Shown: in pieces, positions 1,148 through 19,107 of the stretch
Layout: the number at the start of each line of letters is the position of its first letter
How positions within the stretch are numbered: position 1 is the stretch's first letter
Source: Xanthobacteraceae bacterium
GTDB lineage: Bacteria; Pseudomonadota; Alphaproteobacteria; Rhizobiales; Xanthobacteraceae
Assembly (NCBI GenBank): GCA_019746355.1
Contig: JAIESC010000096.1
Location: 1 to 64,000, forward strand
DNA: 64,000 nt
Direction: 5' to 3'
The notes under the pieces: generated by a model
Seen by the model: the letters and a program-made list of their open reading frames with translations, nothing else
What the model was told of the DNA's origin: nothing
Database searches by the model: none
Position numbers and translations under genes: made by a program

Positions 1148-2113
1148 TCACATCCGTTTCTGGAGTTCCGCATTTGAGCGAACAATGCGGTTCCGCAAAA
1201 TCCCGATGCGCTCAATGTCCAGCTCGACTATGTCGTTTGGCTTCAAAAACCGGTTCAGCTCCAGGCCGCAGCCCGTCGGCACCGTGCCGGACGCGATCAC
1301 TTCTCCCGGATGCAGCGTCTCCTCGCGCGAGACGAAAGCCAGGATGTCATTGAACTTGTGGTGCATGTCCCGCGAATTGCCGCCGCCCCAGCGCTCGCCG
1401 TTCACCCGAACCTGCATGTTCAGGGTGTGCGGGTCGCCGATTTCGTCGCTGGTGACGATCCAGGGGCCGAGAACGTTTCCGGTGTCAAAGTCCTTGCCCT
1501 TCATCGGCCCCATGCTGAGCGGACGCTCCTGCATCTGGGTGTCGCGGGCGGAGAAGTCGTTGAAGATCGTGTAGCCGAAGACGTATTCGAGTGCGTTGGC
1601 TTTGGTCAGATCGCGTCCCTTCTTGCCGATGACGCACGCAAGCTCGAGCTCGAAATCCATCATCTCGGAGTAGCTTGGCCAACTCACGTCGTGCTCGTGC
1701 CCGACAAAGCTGAAGCGGTTGCCCTTGTACCAGGTCGGACGCTCGTACCAGAGCGGCGAGATCGGCGCGGACGGCCGTCCCGTCACCTTCTCCCAGGTCT
1801 TCATCGCATTGACGAGATGCTGCTCGAATACGAGGCAGTCGCGGATCTGCTGCGGCACCGGCAGCGGCGAGAGGAGCCGCGTGCCGGACAGCAGTTGCTC
1901 GCATGCCGCCGGCCAGCGCTCAGCCGCGGTTCGCGCCCGCGCGAGTCCCTGCTCGCCATGCTCAATCAGCGACAGCATGGAGGAAAACGCCGGTTCGGCC
2001 TTGCCGCCGAGCCGCTCGGCCGCGCGAGCGAGATCGAGAATGCGGCCACGCGCGGTGTCGACCGCGCCGACCGCCTGCGTCCCGTCGTTGCGAAGGTACG
2101 TCGCGAGCTTCAT
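1148..2113 (-). CDS. fumarylacetoacetate hydrolase (FAH) family protein
   Basis: A 321-residue FAH-superfamily enzyme. The catalytic domain holds the metal-binding FELELACVIG segment followed by the conserved NALEYVFGYTIFNDFSARDTQ-type region. It continues through a GPWIVTSDEIGDP strand, then RVNGE and PGEVIASGTVPTGCGLE near the C-terminus, all typical of acylpyruvate hydrolase / 2-keto-4-pentenoate hydratase relatives. Family members hydrolyse or hydrate C-C bonds in ring-cleavage products using Mg2+ or Mn2+. It is the last gene of the minus operon with the alpha/beta hydrolase and luciferase-like monooxygenase (7-bp gap, GAGGAA ribosome site). A late step in breaking down a ring-opened substrate is likely; the exact substrate is unknown. 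Confidence 0.88.
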   Translation of the reverse strand: MKLATYLRNDGTQAVGAVDTARGRILDLARAAERLGGKAEPAFSSMLSLIEHGEQGLARARTAAERWPAACEQLLSGTRLLSPLPVPQQIRDCLVFEQHLVNAMKTWEKVTGRPSAPISPLWYERPTWYKGNRFSFVGHEHDVSWPSYSEMMDFELELACVIGKKGRDLTKANALEYVFGYTIFNDFSARDTQMQERPLSMGPMKGKDFDTGNVLGPWIVTSDEIGDPHTLNMQVRVNGERWGGGNSRDMHHKFNDILAFVSREETLHPGEVIASGTVPTGCGLELNRFLKPNDIVELDIERIGILRNRIVRSNAELQKRM

Positions 2114-2120
2114 GGGTTCC

Positions 2121-2903
2121 TCAATGCACGAACGACCGCACCGCTTCGGCGGTTTCCTGCGGGCGATCCAGTTCGACCAGGTGACCGCCGCCGCCGATCA
2201 TGCGGGTTGCAACCTGCGCCGTCATCCCGGCGGCAAATTTCCTGGCGTAGGCCGGCGGCACCACCTTGTCGCCCTCGCCCCACACCAGCAATGTCGCGGC
2301 CTTGATGCGGTGCAGGCGCCCGGACAGCCGCGTATCGCCGAACGGCCACAGGATGCGTGCCGCGGCCTCCTGCGCACGGTTGACCGCAATCGACCACACC
2401 ACCGCCTCTTCGCCGGGCGGCGCCTCCATCTGGCGCGCATAGGCATCCGGGTTCTCACAGAACACGCCGGGCGCTTCCTTGGTCTGGACTGCGAACATGT
2501 CCCGGGTCGGCTGCATGATGTCGTAGAGGCCGAACGGAGCGATCAGCACCAGCCGCTGAACGAGGTCCGGCCACAGCGCCGCCGCGTCGGCGGCGACTGC
2601 GCCGGCAGCGGACGACGCAATCAGCGTATCGCCGGGCTTGAAGCCCGCCCCCAGAAGCAAATCGCGGACGGCCAAGCACCAGCCGAGATGATCGTCGATC
2701 GCATCCTGACCATCGTTGCCGCCGAAACCCGGCAGATGGCAGGCGAGCAGCCGGCCGTGCGCGGCAAGAGCATCGTGAAACGCCGTCCATTTCAACGAAA
2801 GGACGCTGGAGGGCATGTAGTAATAAGGCCTGCCTTGTCCGCACTCGGTCACGCGGCAGGGACGGCCGAACACCTCCACGGCCCGGGTCTGATACGCGCT
2901 CAT
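2121..2903 (-). CDS. alpha/beta-fold hydrolase
   Basis: A 260-residue alpha/beta hydrolase. The start at 2903 (MSAYQTRAVEVFG) is chosen because its ATG overlaps the stop of the upstream monooxygenase gene as ATGA, implying translational coupling; a longer frame upstream lies inside that gene. The nucleophile elbow is a variant, IASSAAGAVAA, in place of GxSxG. The acid region VWGEGDKVVPPAYA and the histidine segment GGGGHLVELDRP are typical. Its position with FAH and a flavin monooxygenase suggests cleavage of an ester, amide or C-C bond in the same pathway; the variant elbow makes activity worth checking. Confidence 0.85.
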   Translation of the reverse strand: MSAYQTRAVEVFGRPCRVTECGQGRPYYYMPSSVLSLKWTAFHDALAAHGRLLACHLPGFGGNDGQDAIDDHLGWCLAVRDLLLGAGFKPGDTLIASSAAGAVAADAAALWPDLVQRLVLIAPFGLYDIMQPTRDMFAVQTKEAPGVFCENPDAYARQMEAPPGEEAVVWSIAVNRAQEAAARILWPFGDTRLSGRLHRIKAATLLVWGEGDKVVPPAYARKFAAGMTAQVATRMIGGGGHLVELDRPQETAEAVRSFVH

Positions 2904-4150
2904 TCGGCGGCCACCGCGACAGGCGCTGCCGACGCCCGTTTGGCCAGCGGCCTCGGCCACCACTTGTGCTCCCACTCGTTCTCGAACAGATCGGCGATCT
3001 GCGGCATCACCCGCTCGGCGAACATGCGCGTGTTGTACATCGTCGTCTGCCTGTCCATGTTGCCGAACTGCAGCAGCAGCAGCATGTTGCCGAAATTAAA
3101 CTCGGTCGCGATCCCGCGAAGCTGATCGGCCACCTCGTCCGGCGAGCCGATCACGACGTAGCCTTCCTTCAGGATGCCGGCCATTTCGTTTTGCAGCGAG
3201 CCGAACAGTTGCGAGCGGTCGGCCGCGATCTTGACCTGCGACGTCAGCTTCATGCGCTGCGTCGCTTCGGTGACATAGCCCGGCGGGGTGGCGTAACGCG
3301 GGTCGACGTGCAGGCTCCGGTTGTAAAAATACTCCGCGGGCTCCCGGTAGAGCTTGATCGCCTCGTCGGTGCTTTCCGCGACGCCAACGAATTGCAGAAA
3401 GCCTGCCCGGAACGGATTGCGGTCCTTCTTCTGCGCCGCCATCTCGTTCCAGTAGCCCTGCATGGTCGCCGCCGCGGAGACGTGGCCGTAGTACGATGTG
3501 TAGCAGTAGACGTAGTCCTGCACGCCGCACCAGTTCCAGGTCTCGACCGAACCGCCGCCCGGCACCCAGATCGGCGGACACGGTTTCTGCACCGGCTTCG
3601 GCCAGGTGTTGACATAGCGCTGCTGGTTGAACCGGCCATTGAACTGGAACACCTCGTCGCGCATCCAGCATTCCTTGATCAGATCATGCGCTTCGAGATA
3701 GCGCTGGCGCAGCATGCTCGGGTTCTGTCCGTAGGCAAAGCACGTGTCCATCGGCGTGCCGACCGGGAAACCGGCGATCAGGCGGCCGCCGGAAATGCAG
3801 TCCACCATCGCAAACTCCTCGGCGATCCGCGTCGGCGGGTTGTAGAGCGCGAGCGAACTGCCGAGCACACAGATCGCCGCGTCAGAGGTGCGCCGCGCCA
3901 GCGACGACGCAATCAGGTTCGGCGACGGCATCAGCCCGTAGCCGTTGGCGTGATGCTCGTTGACGCAGATGGCATCGAAGCCGCATTCGGCCGCGTATTC
4001 CAACTCGTCCATGTACTCGTTGTAGATTCCGTGCGCCCGCACCGGATCGAACAGCTTGGGATCGACGTCGACCCACACGCTGTTGTGCTTCTGCTTGAAG
4101 TCCGACGGAAAATCCGGATAGGGCATCAAATGAAACCAGCAGAAACGCAT
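2900..4150 (-). CDS. LLM-class (luciferase-like) flavin-dependent monooxygenase
   Basis: A 416-residue protein of the bacterial luciferase-like family: N-terminal MRFCWFHLMPYPD, EYAAECGFDAICVNEHH, then SGGRLIAGFPVGTP and a C-terminal EGYVVIGSPDEVADQLR segment, all typical of the TIM-barrel flavin-dependent oxidoreductases. Such enzymes use reduced FMN from a partner reductase; none is encoded nearby. A strong GGGAGGAG ribosome site precedes the ATG at 4150. It is the first gene of a three-gene minus operon, divergent from the IclR regulator across about 500 bp. Probably an oxygen-inserting step on the pathway substrate. Confidence 0.88.
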   Translation of the reverse strand: MRFCWFHLMPYPDFPSDFKQKHNSVWVDVDPKLFDPVRAHGIYNEYMDELEYAAECGFDAICVNEHHANGYGLMPSPNLIASSLARRTSDAAICVLGSSLALYNPPTRIAEEFAMVDCISGGRLIAGFPVGTPMDTCFAYGQNPSMLRQRYLEAHDLIKECWMRDEVFQFNGRFNQQRYVNTWPKPVQKPCPPIWVPGGGSVETWNWCGVQDYVYCYTSYYGHVSAAATMQGYWNEMAAQKKDRNPFRAGFLQFVGVAESTDEAIKLYREPAEYFYNRSLHVDPRYATPPGYVTEATQRMKLTSQVKIAADRSQLFGSLQNEMAGILKEGYVVIGSPDEVADQLRGIATEFNFGNMLLLLQFGNMDRQTTMYNTRMFAERVMPQIADLFENEWEHKWWPRPLAKRASAAPVAVAAE

Positions 4151-4656: not shown

Positions 4657-5460
4657 ATGCGCCGTGCGCCCGTCAAATCTGCCGCCCGTGTTCTCGAGAT
4701 CTTCGAGTTCTTCAACGAACGTCGAGGGCCGCTTTCGCTGAAGGAAATCACGCAACGTCTCGGCTACCCGCAGTCGAGCACCACGGTGCTGCTCAAAAGC
4801 ATGATCGTGCTGGGCTACCTCAACTATGACCGCAAGAGCCGCACCTACCTGCCGTCGCTGAAGCTCGCGACGCTCGGATCGTGGATCGCGGAGCACGTCG
4901 TGCCGCGCGGACCGATCCTCGACCTGATGCAGGAGCTCAGCCTGAAGACCGGCGAAACGATCGGCCTCGCCGTCCAGAACGACCTTTACATCCAGTATCT
5001 GCGCGTCATCGATTCCGAGCATCTGATCCGCTTCCATATTCCCGAAGGCAGCATGCGGCCGCTTACCCATTCAAGCTTCGGGCTGCTGTTTCTCAGCCGT
5101 GCCTCCAACGCCACGGCCGAGCGCACGCTGCGATGCATCAACGCGGCCGAGACCGATCCGAAGGCGCGATTGAACATTCCGGCGCTGATAAAGAAGATCG
5201 AGGAAGTCAGGAAGCTCGGCTACTGCTTCATTCCCAACCTGCCGATGGAGGGCGCCGGTACGGTCAGCATGCTGCTGCCGTGGAGCATGTACGGCCGGCC
5301 TCTCGCCGTGGGTGCCGGCGGATATATCGGGCGGATCCAGCCGAACATGCAGTCAATCATCACGATCATCCGCGCCGCTATTGCGAAGCATGGCAAGCGC
5401 AAGAACCCCTGGGCCGAAGAGCTCTCCTCCCCCGGTCCGCTGCGGCAGGCGGCCGAATAG
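4657..5460 (+). CDS. IclR-family transcriptional regulator
   Basis: A 267-residue regulator. The start at 4657 (MRRAPVKSAARVLEIFEFF) is chosen because a long in-frame extension upstream has no family resemblance. Residues 1-70 form the winged helix (LSLKEITQRLGYPQSSTTVLLKSM, then LGYLNYDRKSRTYLPS). The rest is the IclR effector-binding domain (LSLKTGETIGLAVQNDLYIQYLRV, IPALIKKIEEVRKLGY). IclR proteins repress or activate catabolic operons in response to a pathway metabolite. Its central position among three transcription units sharing a palindrome points to it as the pathway regulator. Confidence 0.92.
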   Translation: MRRAPVKSAARVLEIFEFFNERRGPLSLKEITQRLGYPQSSTTVLLKSMIVLGYLNYDRKSRTYLPSLKLATLGSWIAEHVVPRGPILDLMQELSLKTGETIGLAVQNDLYIQYLRVIDSEHLIRFHIPEGSMRPLTHSSFGLLFLSRASNATAERTLRCINAAETDPKARLNIPALIKKIEEVRKLGYCFIPNLPMEGAGTVSMLLPWSMYGRPLAVGAGGYIGRIQPNMQSIITIIRAAIAKHGKRKNPWAEELSSPGPLRQAAE

Positions 5461-5485
5461 CCGGCCCTTTCAGGCATCGCGGAAT

Positions 5486-5499: not shown

Positions 5500-5594
5500 T
5501 TGGCGGGCCGGTCCTGCGCTGTAGCCGGATTGAACCTAGAATGCCGCCGAAGCGGGCGCCGTCGCTTGTGCCGCAAAGACCGGGAGGAATTCGG

Positions 5595-6566
5595 ATGCCG
5601 ACCTTCGCTTGGCGTTGGGCCATTGCAGTGCTGACTGCGCTCTGTCCATCGTCGGCGCAGGCACAGAAGTTTCCCGACCGGTCCGTCAAGGTGATCGTGC
5701 CGTATACGCCGGGTGGCGGCACCGACACGGTCGCCCGCGCGCTGTCGCAGAAGCTCTCCGAAGCCTGGGGCCAGCCGGTTGTAGTGGAGAACAAGCCGGG
5801 CGCCGGCACCACGCTGGGTGCGGACGCCGTGGCGAAGTCGCCGCGCGACGGCTACACGCTGCTGTTTTCCGACAGCTCGTCGTTCGTCATCAATCCGCAC
5901 ATGTATCCGAACATGCCGTTCGACCCGCTCAAGGATCTCGAACCGGTGTCGCTGTCGGTGCAACTCGCGCCGGTGCTGGCGATGGCCAACGACGCGCCCG
6001 CAAAGACAATTCCTGACCTTGTCTCCTACGCCAAGGCGAACCCCGGCAAACTCACCTATGCGAGCCCCGGCGTCGGCTCCCACACCCACGTCGCGATGGA
6101 GTACCTGAAGCATCTCGCCGGCATCGACATCCTGCACGTGCCGTATCGCGGCTCGACGCCCGCGATGACCGACCTGCTGGCCGGTCGGGTCAACATGTAC
6201 ATGGTGACCTATTCGGTGTTCGACGCTTACGAAAAGGAGGGCAAGCTGAAGATCGTCGCGACCGCAAACGCTCAGCGGCTTCCGGCGCGGCCGGATCTGC
6301 CCACCATCGGCGAGACCGTGAAGGACTATTCGATCAGCGTGTGGTTCGGCTTCGCGGCCCCGGCCGGCACGCCGCCGGCGATCCTCGACAAGATCCACGA
6401 CGATGCCGCCGCGATCCTGAAAGACCCGCAATTCGAGGACAAGTTCCTGAAGCAGCAGGCCTACATCGCCGGTACGTCGAGTCGCCGGCAGTTCTCGGCC
6501 CAGATCAAGTCCGAATACGGCAAGTGGCAGGAGCTCGTGAAAATCTCCGGCGCCAAGCTGCAATAG
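5595..6566 (+). CDS. Bug-family (TTT-type) periplasmic substrate-binding protein
   Basis: A 323-residue receptor. The ATG at 5595 is preferred over a longer frame because a GGAGGA ribosome site sits 6 bases before it and a signal peptide follows at once (TFAWRWAIAVLTALC, cleavage near AQAQ). Hallmarks are VKVIVPYTPGGGTDTVAR, GQPVVVENKPGAGTTLGAD, the LLAGRVNMYM segment near residue 200 and GTPPAILDKIHDD. The family delivers ligands to TctAB-type membrane proteins; none is in the window, so it is an orphan receptor. It is followed after 33 bases by a cyclase-family hydrolase, probably in one operon. Confidence 0.9.
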   Translation: MPTFAWRWAIAVLTALCPSSAQAQKFPDRSVKVIVPYTPGGGTDTVARALSQKLSEAWGQPVVVENKPGAGTTLGADAVAKSPRDGYTLLFSDSSSFVINPHMYPNMPFDPLKDLEPVSLSVQLAPVLAMANDAPAKTIPDLVSYAKANPGKLTYASPGVGSHTHVAMEYLKHLAGIDILHVPYRGSTPAMTDLLAGRVNMYMVTYSVFDAYEKEGKLKIVATANAQRLPARPDLPTIGETVKDYSISVWFGFAAPAGTPPAILDKIHDDAAAILKDPQFEDKFLKQQAYIAGTSSRRQFSAQIKSEYGKWQELVKISGAKLQ

Positions 6567-6599: not shown

Positions 6600-7352
6600 A
6601 TGCGATTTGTCGATCTCAGCGTCACCATCCGCAATGAATCGTTCGAACCGGGCGGCCCGGAGATTTCCCGGCTCACCCACGCGGAAGCGGCGAGGCGGCG
6701 CGCCGCCGACTTCAATTTCCTGCCGAGCGGCTATCCGGACGGCATGGCGCTGGCGCATGAGCGGGTGTCGCTTTCGTCGCATGGCGGCACCCACGTCGAC
6801 GCGCCGCTGCATTACGGGCCGCTGTGCGAGGGCAAGCCCTCGAAGAGCATCGAGGAGGTGCCGCTCGAATGGTGCTACGGCCCCGGCGTGGTCATCGACT
6901 GCTCGCACAAGAAGCCGGCTGAATTCATCATGAAGGCCGACCTGATCGCGGCGCTCGACAAGATTCCGCACAAGCTGAAGCCGAACGAGATCGTGCTCTT
7001 GCGCACCGATGCCTCCAAGCATTTCGACAACCCGCAATTCCCGAACCTGCAGCCGGGCCTGCATCCGGAGGGCTGCCACTGGCTGCTCGACCAGGGCATT
7101 CGCATGATCGGCATCGACGCCTGGGGTCTCGACCGCGCGCCGCGCGACATGGCCGCAGACCACAAGTACGGAATTCCGAATTCGCTGTGGCCGACGCACC
7201 TCGTGGGCCGCGACCGCGAATATCTGCAGATCGAACGGCTGGCCAATCTCGAAGCGCTGCCGCCGACCGGCTTCACCGTCGTCGCCTTTCCGGTGAAGAT
7301 CGAGCACGGCACTGCCGGCTGGTCGCGGGTGGTCGCCTTGATTGACGAATAG
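6600..7352 (+). CDS. cyclase-family (kynurenine formamidase / isatin hydrolase-like) amide hydrolase
   Basis: A 250-residue protein of the PF04199 cyclase family. The metal-binding motif HGGTHVDAPLHYG is at residues 61-73, with GVVIDCSHK and the C-terminal FTVVAFPVKIEHGTAGWSRVVALI typical of this fold. Family members are metal-dependent amidohydrolases (arylformamidase, isatin hydrolase) that open lactams or N-formyl amides. A cyclic amide or formamide in the island's pathway is a reasonable substrate. It ends 48 bp before the convergent Bug gene at 7401. Confidence 0.88.
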   Translation: MRFVDLSVTIRNESFEPGGPEISRLTHAEAARRRAADFNFLPSGYPDGMALAHERVSLSSHGGTHVDAPLHYGPLCEGKPSKSIEEVPLEWCYGPGVVIDCSHKKPAEFIMKADLIAALDKIPHKLKPNEIVLLRTDASKHFDNPQFPNLQPGLHPEGCHWLLDQGIRMIGIDAWGLDRAPRDMAADHKYGIPNSLWPTHLVGRDREYLQIERLANLEALPPTGFTVVAFPVKIEHGTAGWSRVVALIDE

Positions 7353-7400: not shown

Positions 7401-8363
7401 CTATTTCGCCATCCGCTCGATCACTCGCTTCCACTTCTGCTGCTCGTCGGCGATGCGCCTGGCCAGATCGGCCTGCGTCTCGACGATCGGCATGATGGCG
7501 ATCCCGGTCATCCGCGCGGAAATCGCCGGATCGGAGATCACGGCGTTCATCTCTTTATTCAGCCGGTCGATGATCGGCTGCGGCGTGCCCGCCCGCACCG
7601 AGATGTAATTGATCGAGCTTCCGTCAAAGCCCGGCAACGTGTCGGCGATCGGCGCGAGCTCCGGCATGGCCGGCTGCCGCTCCAGCGTGGCAAAGCCGAG
7701 CGCGCGCAATCCGCCGGACTTGATGTGCGGCAACAACGTGCTGGCAGAGTCGATCGCCATCTGCACATGGCCGGCGAGCAGATCGGCCGTCGACGGTCCG
7801 GTGCCGCGATACGGCACGTGAGTGATCTCGACACCCGCCATCTGCCGGAACAACTCGCCCGCAAGGTGCGAGCTCGCGCCAATGCCCGAGCTCGAATAGT
7901 TGAGCTTGCCGGGATTGGCCCTCGCATGGTCAATCAGCTCGCGCACGGTTTTGGGCGGCAGGCTCGGCGTCACCACCAGCACGTTGACCGACTTGGCCAG
8001 CATCGCGACCGGTGTGAAGTCGTTGAACGGATCGTAGGGCAGCTTCCCCATCAGATAGGGATTGGTGATCTGCGGCCCCGCGGTGGTGAACAGCCACGTG
8101 TAGCCGTCAGGCGCCGACTTCGCGACGAGGTCGGCGCCAAGCGTGGCGCCGCCGCCCGGCTTGTTTTCCACCACCACTGGCTGGCCGAGGCTCTTGCTGA
8201 GCGGCTCGGCGATCATGCGCGCGAGGATGTCCGAGCCGCCGCCGGCGGCGAACGGTACGATCAGCCGGATCTGCTGCGACGGATAGGCTTGGGCCAAAGC
8301 CGCACCCGTCGCGGCGGCGAGACCCGCTACCGCGAGGCTCACAACTGCAAACCAACGGTGCAT
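7401..8363 (-). CDS. Bug-family (TTT-type) periplasmic substrate-binding protein
   Basis: A 320-residue receptor with signal peptide (MHRWFAVVSLAVAGLAAATG, cleavage near ALAQA). Motifs are IRLIVPFAAGGGSDILARM, GQPVVVENKPGGGATLGAD, VPYRGTGPSTADLLAGHVQMA and GTPQPIIDRLNKE. A GGGAGGG ribosome site precedes the ATG. It is the last gene of the long minus-strand unit that begins with livK at 19107. No matching TctA/TctB membrane proteins are present, so its transport or sensing partner must be elsewhere. Confidence 0.9.
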   Translation of the reverse strand: MHRWFAVVSLAVAGLAAATGAALAQAYPSQQIRLIVPFAAGGGSDILARMIAEPLSKSLGQPVVVENKPGGGATLGADLVAKSAPDGYTWLFTTAGPQITNPYLMGKLPYDPFNDFTPVAMLAKSVNVLVVTPSLPPKTVRELIDHARANPGKLNYSSSGIGASSHLAGELFRQMAGVEITHVPYRGTGPSTADLLAGHVQMAIDSASTLLPHIKSGGLRALGFATLERQPAMPELAPIADTLPGFDGSSINYISVRAGTPQPIIDRLNKEMNAVISDPAISARMTGIAIMPIVETQADLARRIADEQQKWKRVIERMAK

Positions 8364-8390: not shown

Positions 8391-9203
8391 CTAGCGTTTC
8401 CTTGGATTGAGGTGGTCCGGATAGTAGAAGTCCATCACCTGCGCGACACGGCCGGCCGGCGGCGCCGCGTTGTGCCAGCCGTGCCGGCTGTGGGCGAGAC
8501 CCGACCCGTCGCGAAGATCGACCATGGTCTCGGTCATCTTGATCGTCACGCCGAGGCAGTCGATCACCGGCACGCCGTCGACGCGGTGGATGCCTTCGGA
8601 GGCGAGCAGGACGTTCATCGGGATCTCGCCGGGGATGATGACATCGGCGCCGGCGGCGATCATCGCGCGCGCCGTCTCGCGGAACTTGTCGATCACCGGT
8701 CCAGGATTATCGAAGCCATTGGCGACGTCGCCGAACTGCAACCCGCTCTGGCGGATGCCGGCGCAGCGCCCGGTGAGCCCGGCCCACTCGATGAGCTGCG
8801 CATAGCGCGGGATGACGCGGTCCATGAACAGCATCAGGCCGAAACGCTGGCCGTGCATGGCGGCGACATGAAAGCACACCTCGCCCGCCGCCACCACCGG
8901 AATGTCGACGATGGTTTTGATCTCGCGATACATCGGGTCGATGATCGTGCAGATCGCAAACGCGTCGTACCCCTCGCGCTGCGCGATCAGCGCATTCGCC
9001 GGCCATTGCAGGCTGTGCATCCCGAACAGGAACGAGTAGCCGAGGTCGACGCCGGGATATTCGGTCGAATAGGTGCCAGGGGCTGGGCCATGCAGATCGA
9101 CCACCGTATCGGGGCGCTTGATGCGGTCGATGTGCTGCCGCACCCGCGCGGTGTAGGCTGGGACATCGTCGAGAACGATGAAGCTCTGGTGCCAGATGCG
9201 CAT
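8391..9203 (-). CDS. Asp/Glu/hydantoin racemase-superfamily protein with one predicted catalytic Cys
   Basis: A 270-residue protein of the Asp/Glu racemase superfamily (hydantoin racemase, maleate isomerase, arylmalonate decarboxylase). Cys85 in DAFAICTIIDP fits the first catalytic cysteine. The second conserved Cys position (usually GC in an LGC segment) reads GADVIIPGEIPMN, so Gly192-Glu193 appear instead. Two-Cys racemases need both residues, so this may be an isomerase or decarboxylase variant rather than a racemase. GGAGCAG ribosome site; 15 bp after the hydantoinase-like gene, which suggests a role in handling the same cyclic ureide or its product. Confidence 0.75.
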   Translation of the reverse strand: MRIWHQSFIVLDDVPAYTARVRQHIDRIKRPDTVVDLHGPAPGTYSTEYPGVDLGYSFLFGMHSLQWPANALIAQREGYDAFAICTIIDPMYREIKTIVDIPVVAAGEVCFHVAAMHGQRFGLMLFMDRVIPRYAQLIEWAGLTGRCAGIRQSGLQFGDVANGFDNPGPVIDKFRETARAMIAAGADVIIPGEIPMNVLLASEGIHRVDGVPVIDCLGVTIKMTETMVDLRDGSGLAHSRHGWHNAAPPAGRVAQVMDFYYPDHLNPRKR

Positions 9204-9218
9204 ATTCTGCTCCGATGA

Positions 9219-11746: not shown

Positions 11747-12105
11747 TCACCGGCCCGTTGCGGCGGATACACCTTGAGATCGCGGATCGTCATACGCTCG
11801 AGCGCGAACGCATCGTCGATATCGGTCGTCGCCCATTTCAGCTCGATCGGATGGGCGGTCTCGATGAAGGTGAGCAGCAGATCGAACAGGACCCGTGCGT
11901 CCGCGGGCATGGTGTCGAGCCTGAAATCCGAAAGATAGATCCGCATCTCCTCGGCGCGGCCGAACACCGCGTCATAGAACCTCTGCAATTCGGCAACCGT
12001 CGTGCGCGTCAGCTTGGACAGCCGCTCGGCCTCGTTCGACAGCGCCCATTCGGCAACGAACGGCTCCAGGTCGCGGAATGGCGCAGGAAGCGATCGTTCG
12101 CTCAT
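11743..12105 (-). CDS. hypothetical small protein of the Rieske oxygenase cluster, 120 aa
   Basis: A 120-residue acidic, soluble protein (MSERSLPAPFRDLEPFVAEW). It is much shorter than the usual 160-180-residue SnoaL-like beta subunit of ring-hydroxylating dioxygenases and shows no clear resemblance to one. It overlaps the oxygenase gene upstream and the repeat-bearing gene downstream, both as ATGA, so the three are a coupled unit. Segments such as ELQRFYDAVFGRAEEMRIYLSDFRLDT are predicted helical and strand mixed. A partner or cofactor-loading role is inference from context only. Confidence 0.7.
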   Translation of the reverse strand: MSERSLPAPFRDLEPFVAEWALSNEAERLSKLTRTTVAELQRFYDAVFGRAEEMRIYLSDFRLDTMPADARVLFDLLLTFIETAHPIELKWATTDIDDAFALERMTIRDLKVYPPQRAGE

Positions 12106-13313
12106 GGCCGCACCTGACGAACCATCCTGTCAGCCACGGCATAATGCTGCTGCAGCAGCAACTCCTGCCGCGACAGCACGATGTCCTGCATCGCCGCCGA
12201 CTTCAACGCGCCGGTGATCTGCTCCATGGTCCCGACATCCTCGCGGAACACCTCGCGCAAGCGCGTCCGGAAATAGGCGTGCGCCAGGCAATCGCCAACG
12301 GTTTCAGCCTTGTAGGCGAAGAACTCGACGCGCACGTCGGTCTTGTCCTCGCTGACCGGCCAGAACCAGAGATTGGCGTGCCAGTGCGCGCCGATGATCC
12401 AGATCAGCACCGGAAAGATTTCGACAACGTCGAAGCCCCAGTTTTCGATGCGCGAGGCGTTGACGCCCGGCGGCAACGGCAATCCCTCCTCGCTGAACAG
12501 CGGAAACGAGGGATAGAGCGGACGGCCGTGGCCATAGGCGATCTCCTCGACCGGCGTCACGCGCCGGTTCGGATTGGCCTGGGCCGAATAGCGGCCGTGA
12601 TGCTCGGTGATCTCCAGATAGGCGCGGTGCCGCTGCGGATTCTTCTGGCCGCCCTGATAGTCCGGCACGGTTTTCCGGTGCACGTAGGCCGCGTGATAGC
12701 CCTCGCTGAACGAATTGATCGCAACGTTCCAGTTCGACTCCACCAGGATGCGGTAGCTCGCGATGCGCTGGCGGTTGGAGAAGAAGCCCGGGTATTGATC
12801 GTAGAACTTGCCGAGCCATTGCCGCAGCGACATCGCGGGCCTGGGATCGAAGTTGACGAACACGTAGTCTTCCCAGACTTCCGTGTTGACCGGGATGAGA
12901 CCGTGCTGTTCCGGATCGAGATCGGGAAACTGCGTCTTGTCGGTGACGCCGATCAGGCGGCCGTCAGTGGCATAGGTCCAGCCGTGGAAGCCGCAGGTCA
13001 GGGCCCTGCGGCAGCCGCCTTCGTTCTTCACGAGCTTGGCGCCGCGATGCCGGCACACGTTATAGAACGAACGCACCTCGCCGTCGGGCCCGCGCGCAAT
13101 CAGCAACGATGCCTTCAGCGGCGGCACCTCCGCCACCACGTAGGAGCGGTTCTCCGGCAGATCGGTCGCGCTCGCGACCGGCAGCCAGACGCGGCGGAAA
13201 ATCTGCTCGACTTCCCTGGCGTAGAACTCCGGCTTCAAACGCTCGAGGATATCGACCCGCGATTGCAGCCGGCTGAAGTCGCCGAAAAACTGTGTCTGGG
13301 TGATCTCGTTCAT
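12102..13313 (-). CDS. Rieske non-heme iron oxygenase, alpha (catalytic) subunit
   Basis: A 403-residue ring-hydroxylating oxygenase alpha subunit. The Rieske 2Fe-2S ligands are Cys87-x-His89 and Cys107-x2-His110, spaced 17 as in the family (NVCRHRG and TCGFHGWTY). The mononuclear iron site is visible in SEGYHAAYVH (Glu204, His207, His212). AGGAGGT ribosome site before the ATG. No ferredoxin or reductase is encoded in the window, so electrons must come from elsewhere. It probably adds oxygen to an aromatic or heteroaromatic ring early in the island's pathway. Confidence 0.92.
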   Translation of the reverse strand: MNEITQTQFFGDFSRLQSRVDILERLKPEFYAREVEQIFRRVWLPVASATDLPENRSYVVAEVPPLKASLLIARGPDGEVRSFYNVCRHRGAKLVKNEGGCRRALTCGFHGWTYATDGRLIGVTDKTQFPDLDPEQHGLIPVNTEVWEDYVFVNFDPRPAMSLRQWLGKFYDQYPGFFSNRQRIASYRILVESNWNVAINSFSEGYHAAYVHRKTVPDYQGGQKNPQRHRAYLEITEHHGRYSAQANPNRRVTPVEEIAYGHGRPLYPSFPLFSEEGLPLPPGVNASRIENWGFDVVEIFPVLIWIIGAHWHANLWFWPVSEDKTDVRVEFFAYKAETVGDCLAHAYFRTRLREVFREDVGTMEQITGALKSAAMQDIVLSRQELLLQQHYAVADRMVRQVRP

Positions 13314-13355: not shown

Positions 13356-13667
13356 TCAGAATGGCGGCATCGCCCCGTGCGCCTTGATATAGGCCTCCGC
13401 GCCCGGATGCTGGATGATCGGCGTGACCGAGACCTTCATATAAGGATACATCGGCAGCGAGCCGATGTTGGCGTGAAGCTCCTCGAGCGTGTCGGCCTCC
13501 CAGATGCTGAAATTGGCAACCTGGCCGACGATCCGCCAGATGCGGCGCATCTTGTTGGTTCGGATGAGCTCCATCGCACGGGCGTTCTCGCGAATGCGCA
13601 GGTCGTCCTTCTCCTTCTGCGGCATGTCGGCCGGAATGCTGACTTCGATATTCACCATGAACAGCAT
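13356..13667 (-). CDS. muconolactone delta-isomerase-family protein
   Basis: A 103-residue protein matching the muconolactone isomerase fold: MLFMVNIEVSIPADMP, then RENARAMELIRTNKMRRIWRIVGQ, and SIWEADTLEELHANIGSLPMYPYM. Length is close to the usual 90-107. The family acts in the beta-ketoadipate pathway but many stand-alone relatives have other ring-lactone or unknown roles. AAAGGA ribosome site; it lies between the Rieske oxygenase and an enoyl-CoA hydratase. Confidence 0.87.
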   Translation of the reverse strand: MLFMVNIEVSIPADMPQKEKDDLRIRENARAMELIRTNKMRRIWRIVGQVANFSIWEADTLEELHANIGSLPMYPYMKVSVTPIIQHPGAEAYIKAHGAMPPF

Positions 13668-13694
13668 GACGATGTCCTTTCGATCGGGTCGGGG

Positions 13695-14462
13695 TTAGGC
13701 GCTCGGCCGATCCATCAGCGCGAGCATCTCGGCGTAGAGACCGAAGCCGAGAAGATCCTGCATATGACGCTTGAGATGCTCGGTCAGCACCGCCCGTGTG
13801 GCGCGCACGAGGCTTTTCGGCCGCTTGGCGATCTCCTGCGCCAGCTCCCAGGCACGCGGCATGAGCTTTTCGGGCGGCAGAACCTCGGCCACGAGGCCAA
13901 GCTCGTGGCCCTGTTTCGCCGAGAGCGTCTGGCCGGTCAGCAGGAAATAGCGCGCACGGTTGGCGCCGAGCAGCAGAGGATAGACGACGTGCATGCCGTC
14001 ACCCGGCACAAGCCCGCCGGTGAAATGCGCGGAGTCCTGGAACTGCGCGGTGTCCGATGCCAACACGATGTCGGCAAGGAGCGGCAGCTCGGAATGCCGC
14101 CACGCCGGCCCATTGACGGCGCTGATGATCGGCACCCCAATGTCGAGGAAGTTCAGCAGCCCCTGCCTGCCCTCGGTCAGAATGCGCTCGACGACGTCGA
14201 CCGACGGCCGGGTCGGGAACAGCGGATGCCCCGTATTGGTCACGCGCGGCCCGCTGAACTCAGGCCCGGTGCCGGTGAAAATAACGACCTTGTTCTCATG
14301 ATCGTTGCCGATCTCATAAAACGCCAGCGGCAATTCGCGGTGCGGGCCAAGCCCCCATTGCAGCGATCCGCCGTTGGTGTGCAACGTGACCTGAAGAATG
14401 CCGTCGCGGCGTTCCATCCGGATTGCATCGTATCGGGTGGCGTATTCGGAGAGTTCGCTCAT
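13695..14462 (-). CDS. enoyl-CoA hydratase/isomerase (crotonase) family protein
   Basis: A 255-residue crotonase-fold enzyme. Typical segments are VVIFTGTGPEFSGP (oxyanion-hole region), GVPIISAVNGPAWRHSELPLLADIVLASDTA and the PGDGMHVVYPLLLGANRARYFLLTGQTLSAKQGHELGLVAEVLPPE block. Family reactions include hydration, isomerisation or C-C cleavage of acyl-CoA thioesters. It sits in the long minus operon 11 bp after livF, consistent with a late CoA-dependent step after ring opening. Confidence 0.88.
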   Translation of the reverse strand: MSELSEYATRYDAIRMERRDGILQVTLHTNGGSLQWGLGPHRELPLAFYEIGNDHENKVVIFTGTGPEFSGPRVTNTGHPLFPTRPSVDVVERILTEGRQGLLNFLDIGVPIISAVNGPAWRHSELPLLADIVLASDTAQFQDSAHFTGGLVPGDGMHVVYPLLLGANRARYFLLTGQTLSAKQGHELGLVAEVLPPEKLMPRAWELAQEIAKRPKSLVRATRAVLTEHLKRHMQDLLGFGLYAEMLALMDRPSA

Positions 14463-14473
14463 CGCTGCCTCAT

Positions 14474-15193
14474 TCAGCTCCTTGCAGCCCCGCCGCCGAG
14501 ATAAGCCTCATGCACGCGGGGATTCTGCGCAAGCGTGTCCGCCGGACCGTGCAAAATGACCTCGCCGTTTTCCAGGATATAGCCGTAGGAGCTGACGTTG
14601 AGCGCGATCCGCGCGTTCTGCTCGACCAGCAGGATGGCGATGCCGCTCGCATGAATCGTCTTGATGATGTCGAACACCTGCTGAATCAGGATCGGCGAGA
14701 GGCCGAGGCTCGGCTCGTCAAGCATCAGCAGCTTCGGCTTGGCCATCAGCGCGCGACCGATCATCAGCATCTGCTGCTCGCCTCCAGACAGCGTGCCGGC
14801 AAACTGCGCCTTGCGCTCCCGCAGCCGCGGAAACAGGTCGTAGACGCGGTCAAGCTCCTGGCGGTTGCGCACACGGTCGCGATGCTGCCAGGCGCCGAGC
14901 GTGAGATTGTCCTCGACGCTCATCGCCGCGAAAATCTCCCGGCCCTCGGGGACCTGGACCACGCCGCGCTTGACGATGTCCTCGGCGCGCAGGTTGCCGA
15001 TGTCCTCGCCGCCAAATTCGATGCGGCCCGCGGTCGTCGCGACGAGCCCGGACACGCAATTGAGCGTGGTGGTCTTGCCGGCGCCGTTCGCGCCAAGCAG
15101 GCAGACGATCTGTTTCGCCTCGACCTTCAGCGAGACGTTCTCGAGCGCGGATACCTTGCCGTAGGCGGCGTTGAGCCCGGCGATGCTAAGCAT
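14474..15193 (-). CDS. livF: branched-chain amino acid-type ABC transporter ATP-binding protein LivF
   Basis: A 239-residue ATPase. Walker A GANGAGKTTT is near residue 35, signature LSGGEQQML, Walker B LLMLDEPSLGLSPIL, and the LivF-type QEVFD-like region (QQVFDIIKTIHASG). It overlaps livG by 8 bases. With LivG, LivM, LivH and the LivK-like receptor it completes a HAAT-family importer. In this island the ligand is more likely the catabolic substrate than leucine. Confidence 0.92.
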   Translation of the reverse strand: MLSIAGLNAAYGKVSALENVSLKVEAKQIVCLLGANGAGKTTTLNCVSGLVATTAGRIEFGGEDIGNLRAEDIVKRGVVQVPEGREIFAAMSVEDNLTLGAWQHRDRVRNRQELDRVYDLFPRLRERKAQFAGTLSGGEQQMLMIGRALMAKPKLLMLDEPSLGLSPILIQQVFDIIKTIHASGIAILLVEQNARIALNVSSYGYILENGEVILHGPADTLAQNPRVHEAYLGGGAARS

Positions 15194-15953
15194 GGTCGGA
15201 CCTGCCCAGATAGGCTTCGATGACCCGCGGATCGGTACGGACGTCGTCCGGCCGGCCTTCGGCGATCTTCTGGCCGAAGTTCAGCACGGTGATCCGGTCG
15301 GCGACCGACATCACAAGCTGCATCACGTGCTCGACGAGTACGATCGTGACCTTGCGCTTGCGCGCGAGATCGAGCAGCAGCGAATCGACGAATGAGATCT
15401 CGCGATTGCGCAGGCCCGCCGCCGGCTCGTCGAGCAGAAGAAGGCGCGGCCCGCCGGCCAGCGCCCGCGCCAGATCGAGCAGCTTCTGCCGGCCGAAGTC
15501 GAGCTCGCCCGCCAGCTGATCGCGATAGGAACCGAGCCCGGTCTGATCGAGAACTTCCTCGGCGTCGCGCACTGCCTGCGCCTCGACCCGGCTGCGCCGC
15601 GGGCTCGGCCCGAACGGGATGTAGCCCGGCAGCCGGCCGGTCAGACCGACCAGCACATTCTCCAGCGCCGTCATGCGATGCAGCAGCTCGAGATTCTGGA
15701 ACGTGCGCGCCACCCCTGCCCTGACGATGCCGTGCGACGGCAAGGCGAGGATCGACTGCCCGGCGAACTCGATCGCCCCGCCCGCCGGCTCGCAGAAACG
15801 CGAGATGCAGTTGAACACGGTCGATTTCCCCGCGCCGTTCGGGCCGATCAGCGCATGAATCGAGCCCTCCTCGACGTCCATGGAAAAGCCGTTCAACGCG
15901 CAAAGCCCGCCGAACCGGACCGTGAGATCCCGGATGGACAAAAGCGCGCTCAT
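15186..15953 (-). CDS. livG: branched-chain amino acid-type ABC transporter ATP-binding protein LivG
   Basis: A 255-residue ATPase with Walker A IGPNGAGKST near residue 36, LivG-specific VARTFQNLELLHRMTALENVLVG, Walker B LLLLDEPAAGL and VLNFGQKIAEGRPDDVRTDPRVIEAYLG at the C-terminus. The signature region is degenerate (ELDFGRQKLLDLARAL), as is common in LivG. It overlaps livM by 4 bases (ATGA). Confidence 0.92.
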   Translation of the reverse strand: MSALLSIRDLTVRFGGLCALNGFSMDVEEGSIHALIGPNGAGKSTVFNCISRFCEPAGGAIEFAGQSILALPSHGIVRAGVARTFQNLELLHRMTALENVLVGLTGRLPGYIPFGPSPRRSRVEAQAVRDAEEVLDQTGLGSYRDQLAGELDFGRQKLLDLARALAGGPRLLLLDEPAAGLRNREISFVDSLLLDLARKRKVTIVLVEHVMQLVMSVADRITVLNFGQKIAEGRPDDVRTDPRVIEAYLGRSDHA

Positions 15954-16972
15954 GATGCGGACCGTGTATCGGCCGGCGCGGGACTCGCCGCGGCGGTGTT
16001 CGACACGCTTTTCGCAGCAGGCTGCACGCGGGCGGACCGTGCTTGCAGGATACCCCAGATGCCCCGTGGCATGAACATCACCGCCAGCACCAGGATCAGC
16101 CCGTAGGCGAACTCCTGCCAGACCAGGAGGCCGCGCGGCGCTGCGCGCAGCAGCTCCGGCAGAAGTCCGATCAGGACCACGCCGAGCAGCACACCGGCGA
16201 TGGAACCGGAGCCGCCGACCACCACCATGGTCAGCACCAGGATCAGTTGCGCGAGCCCGACCGAGTCCGGCGTCACATAGGACTGGTAGAGCGTGTAGGC
16301 GCCGCCCGCGAGGCCCGCAAACACCGCGGACAGCACGAAGGCGACGACCTTGGTGCGCTTGACGTCGATGCCGGAGGCCGCGGCCACGTGCTCGCTGTCA
16401 CGGATGGTGCACAGATCGCGGCCGAGCTTGGAGCGGACCAGGTAGCACATCGCCAGCAGCACGGCCGACAGGATGATGACCATCACCGGAAAGGCCCGCC
16501 GGTCGGTGCCGACCACGTAGCCGAAGATGTCGGGAGCGGCGATGCGAAGCCCGTCGGGGCCCTTGGTCACGCTTTCCCAGGTCCGGAACACCCACTGAGC
16601 GAACTCGGCGAAGGCGTAGGTGGCAAGCGCCAGATAGACGGTGCGAAGCCGCGTCGCCGGGATTGCGATCAAGAGTCCCACAAGGCCTGCCAGCGCCGCC
16701 GCGAGCGGCACGCCGACCACGAACGGAACGCCGAGCCGCATCTGCAACAGCGCGCTGGTGTAGATCCCGATGCCGAAGAACGCGATGTGGGCGAAGGCAA
16801 ACTGGCCGGACCAGCCGAGCAGCAGATCGAGGCCCAGCGCCAGGATCGCATACATCATCAGCGTGTTGCCGAGATAAAGAAAATACTCCGGGAGAACGAG
16901 CGGCAGCGCGCAGCCGAGCGCAAGCAGGATCGCGATCCCGCAATACACCTTGAAGTTCGGCGCGCCGTACAT
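15950..16972 (-). CDS. livM: branched-chain amino acid-type ABC transporter permease LivM
   Basis: A 340-residue polytopic membrane protein with the LivM block LGLDLLLGWSGQFAFAHIAFFGIGIY near residue 50. The EAA-like loop region is RDLCTIRDSEHVAAASGIDVKRTKVVAFVLSAVFAGLAGG. The C-terminal tail (KSVSNTAAASPAPADT) is a short disordered extension. It starts 2 bp after livH stops. Confidence 0.92.
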   Translation of the reverse strand: MYGAPNFKVYCGIAILLALGCALPLVLPEYFLYLGNTLMMYAILALGLDLLLGWSGQFAFAHIAFFGIGIYTSALLQMRLGVPFVVGVPLAAALAGLVGLLIAIPATRLRTVYLALATYAFAEFAQWVFRTWESVTKGPDGLRIAAPDIFGYVVGTDRRAFPVMVIILSAVLLAMCYLVRSKLGRDLCTIRDSEHVAAASGIDVKRTKVVAFVLSAVFAGLAGGAYTLYQSYVTPDSVGLAQLILVLTMVVVGGSGSIAGVLLGVVLIGLLPELLRAAPRGLLVWQEFAYGLILVLAVMFMPRGIWGILQARSARVQPAAKSVSNTAAASPAPADTRSAS

Positions 16973-16974
16973 CG

Positions 16975-17877
16975 CTAGACCTTCTTGAACGCGAGTTCGC
17001 CGAACAAGCCCTGCGGCCGCAGCACCAGCACCAGCATGATCACGACGAATGGCGTCACCGACATGGCCTGCGGCGAAATCAGAACGCCGACCAGGTTCTG
17101 CAGCACGCCGAGGAAGATGCCGCCGATCACGCAGCCGGCGAGCGACGAGAAGCCGCCGATGATGGCCGCCGCAAAGGCCAGCATGACGACATTGCCCATG
17201 TCGGGCGTCATCAGGAGCTTGGGAGAAAGGAGAATGCCGCCGACACCGGCGAGCGCCGACGCAAGGCCCCAGGCGATCATCCGCATTCGCTTGACCGGGA
17301 TGCCGATGAGCGCCGCGGCACGCGGATTCTGGCTGGTCGCGCGTAGCGCCTTGCCGGTCGGGGTCCAGCCGAAGAACACGGTGAGCGCCAGCATCACCAG
17401 CATCGTCACGACCATGATGGCGATATCCTGCTGCTGTAGGATGACATCGCCGACGAACACCGGCGCTCCGGACAGCAGCGGCGGCAGGCGGCGCACCTCT
17501 TCGGTGTAAGGCACGACGCGCACGGCGCCCTTGAGCAGGTAGCCGAGCCCGATGGTCGCCACCACCATGGGCACAAGGTCCGCTTCGGCATTCCTGGAAT
17601 AGCGCCGCCCGCTGATGGCGCCGAGCGCAATGCGGTCGAACAGCGCGCCCGCGGCAAACATCACCGCAAGGACGGCGGCGAACATCACGGCGTAGTTGAC
17701 CTCGAAGAACACCAGGGCCAGCAGCGCAAAATAGCCGCCGAGCATCAGCACTTCGCCGCCGGCGAAATTCACCACGTCGGTGGACTTGTAGACGATCACG
17801 AGCGACAGCGCGACGAGCGCATAAACGCAGCCCGTCACGATGCCGCTTGCGGCCGCCTGGAGGAACAGAAACGACAT
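16975..17877 (-). CDS. livH: branched-chain amino acid-type ABC transporter permease LivH
   Basis: A 300-residue polytopic permease: ALVALSLVIVYKSTDVVNFAGGEVLMLGGY near the N-terminus is the LivH signature. GKALRATSQNPRAAALIGIPVKRMRMIAWGLASALAG is the ATPase-contacting loop. About eight hydrophobic segments are visible. Second gene of the operon, 21 bp after the receptor gene. Confidence 0.92.
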   Translation of the reverse strand: MSFLFLQAAASGIVTGCVYALVALSLVIVYKSTDVVNFAGGEVLMLGGYFALLALVFFEVNYAVMFAAVLAVMFAAGALFDRIALGAISGRRYSRNAEADLVPMVVATIGLGYLLKGAVRVVPYTEEVRRLPPLLSGAPVFVGDVILQQQDIAIMVVTMLVMLALTVFFGWTPTGKALRATSQNPRAAALIGIPVKRMRMIAWGLASALAGVGGILLSPKLLMTPDMGNVVMLAFAAAIIGGFSSLAGCVIGGIFLGVLQNLVGVLISPQAMSVTPFVVIMLVLVLRPQGLFGELAFKKV

Positions 17878-17898
17878 GGAGCAGGCTAGCGGTCGAGG

Positions 17899-19107
17899 TT
17901 AGAGCCCATCCTTGCCGTTCCAGGTGTAGACCCCGGGCATCCTCTTCTGCGTCGTTCCGTCGTACTTCACGACGAAGCCGCTACGCATGCCGTCGCGGCG
18001 GTTGGCGCCGAATTGCAGCGGTCCGGCCAAGATCTCCGGCTTGAAGTCGAGCGATTCCATCGCCGCGACAAACGACTCGCGCGTGAGATTGCGCCCGGCC
18101 TTCTCCAGCGCCGCCGCAACCGCCATCGCTGACGGCAGACCGGTGATCATGAAGGGGCCGGCCTCGCGATCCGGATAGTGCGCCTTGTACATGTCGGCGT
18201 ACTTCTTCTTGAGCGCTTCGTCGCCAACGTCGGTGAACGACCAGCCGTGATAGAAGTTCTGCAGGGCCGCGGGATTGCCGACGTTCTTGGCGAACACCGA
18301 CGGAGTCGGGATGCCCTGGACCGCTTGCATCAGCGGGATCGAAGTCATGGCGTATTCGCCGTACTTCTGCGCGATCAGCACCGCCGGCGCCGGATATGCA
18401 CCCGACAGGATCACATCGGGCCGGGCGCTGCGGATCTTCAGGAGCGGAGCGGTCACGTCGGTGATGCGCGGATCGATGCGCTCGGCCGCCACCACCTCTA
18501 CGTTGTTGGCCTTCAGGATCGCCTCGGTGGTCGCGAGGTTTGCCTTGCCGTAGTCGTCATCGTGCACGATCACCGCGGCGCGCTTCACCTTCAGCCCGTT
18601 GATGGCGTAACCGGCCAGCGCCGCCGCATAGGCGCGCTGCGTGCCGTGGAACGCGCCGAACGTGTAGCGCAGCGGCGGAATCACGGCGTTGTCGCCGGCT
18701 GCGTTGAGCATGGAGTACGGCACTTTCTCGCGGTTGATGTATTCCTGCGCCGCCGTGAGCGCTGCAGTGCACGAGCCGCCATGCAGCATGAACACGTTGT
18801 CGACAGTGACGAGCTTCTTGACGACCGCGACCAGATCGTTGGCCGTGCACTTGTCGTCCTCGATCACCAGCTTGATCTTGCGGCCGTGAACCCCGCCCTT
18901 CTTGTTGATGTCGTCGTACCACATCTTGGCGGCGTTCACGGGATCGAGCCCGTAACCCACCAGCGGCCCCGACAGCGGACCGAACAGGCCGACGGTGATT
19001 TCAGTGTCCGTCAGCCCCGGGTCGGCAGCCGACGCCTGGCTCACGGCCAAGCCCAGCGTCGCCGCCACCCCGAGCAGCGTGTGTTTCGTTGCAATCTGCC
19101 ATTTCAT
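17899..19107 (-). CDS. LivK/LivJ-like ABC transporter periplasmic substrate-binding protein
   Basis: A 402-residue receptor. The ATG at 19107 (MKWQIATKHTLLGVAATLG) is chosen because a GGGAG ribosome site precedes it and a signal peptide (cleavage near ASAADP) follows; an upstream in-frame Met is less likely. Features include ITVGLFGPLSGPLVGYG, GVHGRKIKLVIEDDKC, FMLHGGSCTAALTA and AAVIVHDDDYG, typical of type I periplasmic binding proteins of the HAAT family. It is the first gene of the 14-gene minus unit and the candidate receptor for the island's substrate. Confidence 0.92.
   Translation of the reverse strand: MKWQIATKHTLLGVAATLGLAVSQASAADPGLTDTEITVGLFGPLSGPLVGYGLDPVNAAKMWYDDINKKGGVHGRKIKLVIEDDKCTANDLVAVVKKLVTVDNVFMLHGGSCTAALTAAQEYINREKVPYSMLNAAGDNAVIPPLRYTFGAFHGTQRAYAAALAGYAINGLKVKRAAVIVHDDDYGKANLATTEAILKANNVEVVAAERIDPRITDVTAPLLKIRSARPDVILSGAYPAPAVLIAQKYGEYAMTSIPLMQAVQGIPTPSVFAKNVGNPAALQNFYHGWSFTDVGDEALKKKYADMYKAHYPDREAGPFMITGLPSAMAVAAALEKAGRNLTRESFVAAMESLDFKPEILAGPLQFGANRRDGMRSGFVVKYDGTTQKRMPGVYTWNGKDGL

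Follow-up and report, generated by a model that had tools for sequence, protein, structure and literature searches.

A proposed composite catabolic island of a Xanthobacteraceae bacterium with amidohydrolase and cysteine hydrolase genes embedded in a recurring Rieske oxygenase operon

We analyzed a stretch of 64,000 nucleotides (hereafter, the window) from contig JAIESC010000096.1 of a Xanthobacteraceae bacterium (assembly GCA_019746355.1), in which genes for a Rieske oxygenase, a branched-chain-type importer, and several hydrolases lie close together. The original prediction, made from the letters of the DNA, described them as a three-unit, IclR-centred catabolic system. The genes are as follows.

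1148..2113, minus strand: FAH-superfamily hydrolase (PF01557 FAA_hydrolase, E 5.8e-58)
2121..2903, minus strand: alpha/beta hydrolase, overlapping the next gene by 4 bp
2900..4150, minus strand: luciferase-like (FMN-type) monooxygenase, LLM (PF00296 Bac_luciferase, E 1e-30)
~4657..5460, plus strand: IclR regulator (PF09339/PF01614)
5541..6566, plus strand: Bug/TctC solute receptor 1, Bug1 (PF03401, E 1.6e-73)
6600..7352, plus strand: cyclase-family metal hydrolase, isatin-hydrolase-like (PF04199)
7401..8363, minus strand: Bug/TctC solute receptor 2, Bug2 (PF03401)
8391..9203, minus strand: Asp/Glu-racemase-superfamily protein lacking the catalytic cysteine pair (PF01177)
9219..10607, minus strand: cyclic amidohydrolase, proposed imide hydrolase, module B (Amidohydro_1)
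10624..11328, minus strand: isochorismatase-fold cysteine hydrolase, proposed half-amidase, module B (PF00857)
11363..11746, minus strand: 127-residue beta-rich protein (no Pfam family; 12-bp tandem repeat at the 5' end)
11743..12105, minus strand: 120-residue helical protein of the Rieske-partner family (no Pfam domain above cut-off)
12102..13313, minus strand: Rieske oxygenase alpha subunit (PF00355 and PF00848)
13356..13667, minus strand: muconolactone-isomerase-like protein, MIase (PF02426, E 2.6e-29)
13695..14462, minus strand: 6-oxocamphor-hydrolase-type beta-diketone hydrolase, the "crotonase" (ECH_1; 1o8u E 3.6e-68, 2j5g E 1.4e-62)
14474..19170, minus strand: LivF, LivG, LivM, LivH, and LivK, the five genes of a branched-chain-type ABC importer
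19367..20344, plus strand: aldo/keto reductase, AKR, divergent from LivK (PF00248)

Domain searches confirmed all of the predicted families at their coordinates, and the division into three units, with two Bug receptors and a complete Liv-type importer, was borne out. Unit 1 (minus strand) comprises the LLM, alpha/beta hydrolase, and FAH genes, unit 2 (plus strand) the IclR, Bug1, and cyclase genes, and unit 3 (minus strand) 14 genes running from LivK to Bug2. The gaps within the units range from -8 to 42 bp, except for the 134 bp between IclR and Bug1, for which the Bug1 start was taken as 5595. The LLM/alpha/beta hydrolase, 127-residue/120-residue, and 120-residue/Rieske pairs each overlap by 4 bp, and the two module B genes are embedded among the other genes of unit 3 with gaps of 15–34 bp.

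A scan of genomes with the window Rieske protein, from which 80 loci of 264 relatives were kept, gave as its top match an 87% identical protein in a metagenome-assembled genome (MAG) of Rhodoplanes piscinae (locus L001). The gene order there is AKR (divergent), LivKHMGF, crotonase, MIase, Rieske, 120-residue, 127-residue, LLM, alpha/beta hydrolase, racemase, and Bug2. The orthologues are 65–92% identical (LLM, 92%; Liv genes, 82–85%; AKR, 81%; Bug2, 77%), 13 of the window genes occur in the same order, and the AKR gene flanks the same side of the operon as in the window. The LLM and alpha/beta hydrolase genes, however, lie inside the Rhodoplanes operon, at another position than in the window, and the FAH, IclR, cyclase, amidohydrolase, and isochorismatase-fold genes had no match in the 21 kb of this locus at E<=1e-5. 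In a second relative of the same family as the Rhodoplanes MAG (G473), LivKHMGF and the crotonase, MIase, Rieske, and 120-residue genes are kept as nine genes in order, with identities of 42–72% (Liv genes, 61–72%), on an 11-kb contig that ends shortly past the operon; there, the 120-residue gene is followed by one that encodes a reductase containing 2Fe-2S and NAD-binding domains. Since nine genes recur in order in G473 and 13 in the Rhodoplanes MAG, the arrangement is not due to chance. We refer to LivKHMGF, the crotonase-fold enzyme, the MIase-like protein, the Rieske oxygenase, and the 120-residue protein as core A. An integrase-like gene was noted by eye near the AKR side of the Rhodoplanes core operon (L091, 116-1447).

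Core A is rare among the genomes searched. The window-type Rieske gene was found in 1 of 397 genomes drawn from the order (E<=1e-80) and in 2 of 391 drawn from the family (E<=1e-60), the Rhodoplanes MAG being counted in both draws. One of 399 genomes of another order (E<=1e-70) held a 44% identical Rieske gene, with a 120-residue gene and a Bug gene and with no match to the remaining core in the 28 kb read. In both Rhodoplanes and G473, a GntR gene (66% alike between the two) lies upstream of LivK. The window has no match to this GntR gene, and its 238-bp gap is too short to house one; conversely, no IclR gene was seen next to the core in either relative. The IclR gene is therefore, as far as seen, a local feature of this window, and the description of the system as IclR-centred is not supported.

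The Rieske protein carries the CxH..CxxH cluster motif at residues 87-110 and the two-histidine mononuclear iron motif at residues 204-212. The latter, EGYHAAYVH, starts with a Glu that presumably resembles the Glu of carnitine oxygenase. Its best solved relative is 6y9c, aligned over residues 29-213, and its score of 100.3 bits is far below the NCBIfam equivalog cut-off of 670 bits for GbcA, from which it also differs in having an adjacent gene for a 120-residue partner. Carnitine and glycine betaine monooxygenases, to which 6y9c and the Glu liken the window enzyme, are built of alpha subunits only.

The 120-residue gene adjoins the Rieske gene in the 10 loci with the best E-values among the 80, and had no match in the other 70 at E<=1e-3; some of these 70 lie on short contigs, and one (L011) has a full-length but more distant Rieske match. 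Since eight of the 10 positive loci helped to build the profile of the family, it is the position of the gene, and not its detection, that counts as evidence. A search of the class with the family profile itself placed the family in 18 of 385 genomes (37 matches). Thirty of these matches, among them the already known G001 (Rhodoplanes) and G002, were tested as loci: in 29, the 120-residue gene is the immediate neighbor of a Rieske gene, and the remaining locus is at a contig end. The structure model of the protein is all-helical, with a mean predicted local distance difference test (pLDDT) score of 87.4. The beta subunit of ring-hydroxylating dioxygenases has a beta-rich, NTF2-like fold; this identity was rejected on account of the all-helical model and the lack of a Pfam family above cut-off. 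These results suggest that the 120-residue protein works as a partner of the Rieske oxygenase. Ten copies of the family were noticed in one alphaproteobacterial genome of 2.5 Mb (G912).

The window and Rhodoplanes both carry the 127-residue gene. Its model is beta-rich (pLDDT 86), and the alignment of the family contains a nearly invariant VWYAPHPLLRHWLG stretch. Neither small protein has a Pfam domain above cut-off, and neither model gave a significant PDB match. At the start of the 127-residue gene, a 12-bp tandem repeat of 4.8 copies (11669-11725) encodes RQVY repeats; fewer copies occur in a near-identical protein (P0187) and none in the other alignment rows displayed.

For the crotonase-fold enzyme (13695-14462), the nearest solved relatives are 6-oxocamphor hydrolase (1o8u, 233.3 bits) and the beta-diketone hydrolase alr4455 (215 bits), whereas the best enoyl-CoA hydratase scored only 88.9 bits. 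The alignment to the solved beta-diketone hydrolases spans residues 4-251, and H41, H123, H146, D155, and E245 are kept in all six aligned sequences (the window enzyme and five homologues). They align with the His/His/His/Asp/Glu catalytic residues of 6-oxocamphor hydrolase. Because its closest relatives are beta-diketone hydrolases and the catalytic residues are kept, the enzyme is read as a probable retro-Claisen hydrolase that would act independently of coenzyme A (CoA); a CoA step is unlikely. It shares the five catalytic columns with 6-oxocamphor hydrolase and alr4455, and differs from them in its operon setting with Rieske, MIase, and Liv genes. CoA-dependent beta-oxidation by this enzyme was rejected, as the beta-diketone hydrolases far outscore the enoyl-CoA hydratases, and no CoA ligase or CoA transferase was recognized among the window genes scanned; the CoA-dependent steps that had been proposed are thus not supported.

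Homologues of the crotonase-fold enzyme were found in 39 plasmid records, and 8 of the 25 listed neighborhoods were opened. A cyclase gene is adjacent in two of the eight, a molybdenum-type hydroxylase is present in four, an amidohydrolase (annotated as cytosine deaminase) in one, and two P450 genes with a GMC oxidoreductase gene in one, while one contains no cyclase, molybdenum-type hydroxylase, amidohydrolase, or P450. G473 also has a cyclase/diketone-hydrolase gene pair, which adjoins a Liv set and an amidohydrolase gene. Judging from these neighborhoods, the window cyclase is plausible as a candidate partner of the diketone hydrolase, and both an N-heterocyclic and a terpenoid substrate are allowed. 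The cyclase has the motif HGGTHVDAPLH, which fits the HxGTHxDxPxH pattern of the family of isatin hydrolase and kynurenine formamidase, and its best PDB match is isatin hydrolase A (5.5e-21). A Neorhizobium gene annotated as enoyl-CoA hydratase was considered as a further beta-diketone hydrolase and was not used, since tblastn gave no support.

The MIase-like protein scored 101.6 bits against PF02426 (cut-off 26.7). In all three of the plasmid LLM neighborhoods opened (Mycobacterium, Neorhizobium, and Rhodococcus; 16 records found), the LLM gene has an alpha/beta hydrolase gene as its neighbor. For the racemase-like protein, the two cysteine columns of hydantoin racemase are occupied by Thr, Ala, and Thr (first) and by Glu in each case (second) in the window, Rhodoplanes, and Variovorax proteins, respectively. 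A Cys lies one place ahead of the first column in the window and Rhodoplanes proteins, and a shifted alignment could rescue one cysteine, but not the pair. From its sequence, the protein is unlikely to be a racemase of the two-cysteine type, and hydantoin racemase function was rejected because the pair is replaced.

The amidohydrolase and the cysteine hydrolase (module B) show a different distribution. All 10 plasmid records with an amidohydrolase match (E<=1e-60) also hold a cysteine hydrolase gene within ~10 kb, as read from record coordinates or, for Variovorax PBL-E5, from the fetched neighborhood. Eight of these records were fetched (the Novosphingobium record, which has no annotation, was read by tblastn), and in these eight and Rhodoplanes contig C68, nine of nine pair-holding neighborhoods have isocitrate-lyase/phosphoenolpyruvate-mutase-family, MmgE/PrpD, or aconitase genes; some also have an FAD dehydrogenase or a CobW-type GTPase gene. 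These neighbors would point to tricarboxylate-type products. In the window, no match to the usual companions was found at E<=1e-5. In Methylobacterium, Variovorax, and others, module B is found apart from core A, and the Rhodoplanes and Methylobacterium orthologues are 62–67% (amidohydrolase) and 73–77% (cysteine hydrolase) identical to the window proteins.

In Rhodoplanes, the orthologues (63% and 77%) lie on another contig than core A. Both are less than 10 kb from a contig end, so that a looser linkage is possible, but the pair is outside the core operon. The window pair is flanked by the 127-residue and racemase genes, a position taken in Rhodoplanes by the LLM and alpha/beta hydrolase genes. 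The two hydrolases thus look as if they had been captured into the core operon in this window. The expected co-occurrence of the Rieske, 120-residue, 127-residue, and hydantoinase-like genes was found in Rhodoplanes for the first three, the hydantoinase-like gene being on the other contig. More generally, parts of the catabolic units recur in Rhodoplanes and G473, but not as one set, and the absence of the hydantoinase-like and amidase genes from the Rhodoplanes core operon and the 11-kb G473 contig speaks against one pathway of fixed content.

For the amidohydrolase, the metal-ligand motifs HLH, FKI, PHPEN, VHT, and GTD are all present; PMC9863593 gives the ligands of cyclic amidohydrolases as four His, one Asp, and one carbamylated Lys, and counts imidases among these enzymes. 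The best curated model families are allantoinase and hydantoinase, but the enzyme reached the curated cut-off in none of the 25 models listed of the 58 matched, scoring for example 280 of 631, 262.7 of 357.85, and 256.2 of 393.25 bits (the last for hydantoinase). An allantoinase identity was rejected because of this score and because the window holds a urate/allantoin cluster of its own. For the cysteine hydrolase, an Asp/Lys/Cys triad, as described for NicF in PMC5806882, is present in the motifs IDVQY, PKKHPSAF, and SGCVR. Its best PDB matches are 3ot4 (114.6 bits) and 3uao; further scores are 111.6 bits for 4l07 (an isochorismatase-family hydrolase) and 105 and 91.2 bits for N-carbamoylsarcosine amidase. 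A tree did not firmly separate its placement between NicF and N-carbamoylsarcosine amidase. A 59% identical homologue lies in a Variovorax cluster with a match to 2,5-dihydroxypyridine 5,6-dioxygenase (1.8e-80), a neighborhood that would be the context of a maleamate amidase; for another homologue, no such dioxygenase was found in the stretch opened. Because cyclic amidohydrolases include imidases, and because an imidase-amidase pair is described as opening the ring in fungal nicotinate catabolism (PMC9304392), module B may comprise a cyclic-imide hydrolase and a half-amidase. The proposed pair of reactions would be like that of imidase and half-amidase degradation and of HxnM/HxnN of Aspergillus nidulans, although HxnM is related to deacetylase-fold imidases, and the module B enzyme belongs to the amidohydrolase superfamily.

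We consider it an even call that the locus is a composite catabolic island of two separately evolved modules serving the breakdown of a probably nitrogen-bearing ring compound. The substrate would be imported by the Liv importer and the Bug receptors and oxygenated on the ring by the Rieske oxygenase with its 120-residue partner, and the LLM/alpha/beta hydrolase pair might add a second oxygenation and a hydrolysis. The MIase-like protein may then rearrange the product, the 6-oxocamphor-hydrolase-type enzyme would cleave a ring C-C bond hydrolytically, and the cyclase and FAH enzymes could perform further hydrolyses. Module B would open a cyclic imide, or a similar cyclic amide, and remove the amide nitrogen, and both oxygenases would depend on electron donors encoded in another part of the genome. 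The nitrogen-bearing ring proposed earlier is plausible, given the half-amidase homologue beside the 2,5-dihydroxypyridine dioxygenase gene and the constant linkage of the module B genes on plasmids; a triad of hydantoin racemase, hydantoinase, and carbamoylase is not supported.

Several results weigh against this composite pathway. On the PBL-E5 plasmid, a further amidohydrolase homologue (41%) lies near a GTPase gene and lacks both the cysteine hydrolase and the companions, and three opened homologues of the cysteine hydrolase have no amidohydrolase nearby. The score of the proposed half-amidase against N-carbamoylsarcosine amidase (105 bits) falls little short of that against 3ot4. The cyclase gene adjoins the beta-diketone hydrolase homologue in only two of the eight opened plasmid neighborhoods. 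G473 lacks matches to the LLM (E<=1e-30) and 127-residue (E<=0.001) genes, and FAH was not detected in either relative genome at E<=1e-60. Neither a reductase partner of the Rieske oxygenase nor a flavin reductase serving the LLM was recognized in the window (1148-19170). Finally, core A occurs without adjacent module B in Rhodoplanes and, within the extent of the contig, in G473, and core A may use a nitrogen-free compound and module B another.

A more far-reaching form of the proposal is rather unlikely. In it, the 120-residue family would provide a widespread alpha-only Rieske clade with an obligatory subunit or assembly factor of a new, all-helical kind. The core would then encode an aerobic route not described before: the Rieske and flavin oxygenases would generate a cyclic 1,3-dicarbonyl, its cleavage would need no CoA, and the captured imidase and half-amidase would open an imide end. 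As a speculation, a conceivable class of natural substrate would be substituted maleimides that arise when tetrapyrroles are broken down.

The foremost alternative, unlikely in our estimate, is that two unrelated pathways are adjacent here, core A acting on a nitrogen-free alicyclic or aromatic (terpenoid-like) compound and module B being an independent imide or amide pathway that came to lie in the operon. The separate occurrence of the modules, on both sides, fits this alternative, as do the nearest solved relative of the crotonase-fold enzyme, which by its name acts on a terpenoid diketone, and the plasmid homologue whose neighborhood contains the P450 and GMC oxidoreductase genes. Against it, module B is reduced in the window to two hydrolases without the usual companions, and its 15–34-bp gaps among core genes suggest joint transcription.

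Improbable is a pyridine-type pathway, in which the LLM and Rieske oxygenases would open a hydroxypyridine and the alpha/beta hydrolase and cysteine hydrolase would serve as N-formylmaleamate deformylase and maleamate amidase. The Variovorax cluster of the 59% identical cysteine hydrolase, which also has an alpha/beta hydrolase and a xanthine-dehydrogenase-type hydroxylase, is consistent with such a route, and with nicotinate degradation (NicX, NicD, NicF) the window shares the NicF-fold cysteine hydrolase with its Asp/Lys/Cys motifs and an alpha/beta hydrolase. However, the window has no match to NicX, to the Variovorax dioxygenase, or to the molybdenum-type hydroxylases used as queries (E<=1e-5), and has Rieske and LLM oxygenases. 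Least probable is a hydantoin or ureide pathway of racemase, hydantoinase, and N-carbamoyl amidase in series, as originally suggested: the curated model families of the amidohydrolase and the closeness of the cysteine hydrolase to N-carbamoylsarcosine amidase agree with it, but the amidohydrolase is below every listed cut-off, the racemase-like protein lacks the cysteine pair and is encoded in the Rhodoplanes operon without the other two, and the module B neighbors suggest tricarboxylate-type products.

Three further clusters were observed. The urate/allantoin cluster of the window (31000-45100), leading to glyoxylate, includes a urate oxidase-type gene (39329-40543), a permease (41617-42978), a thiamine-pyrophosphate carboligase-type enzyme (34284-36059), and a polysaccharide-deacetylase domain fused to OHCU decarboxylase (43615-45060), with other members assigned by eye. 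On a Variovorax plasmid (L106, 1-9371), cofC, cofD, cofG, cofH, and an F420 reductase gene adjoin an LLM gene and the 41% amidohydrolase gene, an apparent case of plasmid-borne F420 synthesis. On a Variovorax SRS16 plasmid (L154, 2231-11568), IclR, Bug, molybdenum-type hydroxylase, FAD monooxygenase, half-amidase, and alpha/beta hydrolase genes lie together, and a gene annotated as "leucyl aminopeptidase", which matches 2,5-dihydroxypyridine dioxygenase, is likely misannotated.

Overall, we regard the locus as a genuine catabolic island of composite make-up, built from known enzyme families, and one small protein family in it merits study in its own right. For these genes, the names "crotonase" and "racemase" lead pathway prediction astray, and the cluster illustrates how an island may be assembled, with two imide-type hydrolases inside another operon. 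Rieske oxygenases are among the main enzymes with which ring degradation begins, and what they can do depends on their partners; a small family that is tied to one large Rieske clade, with no Pfam or PDB match, is a directly testable candidate for a new subunit.

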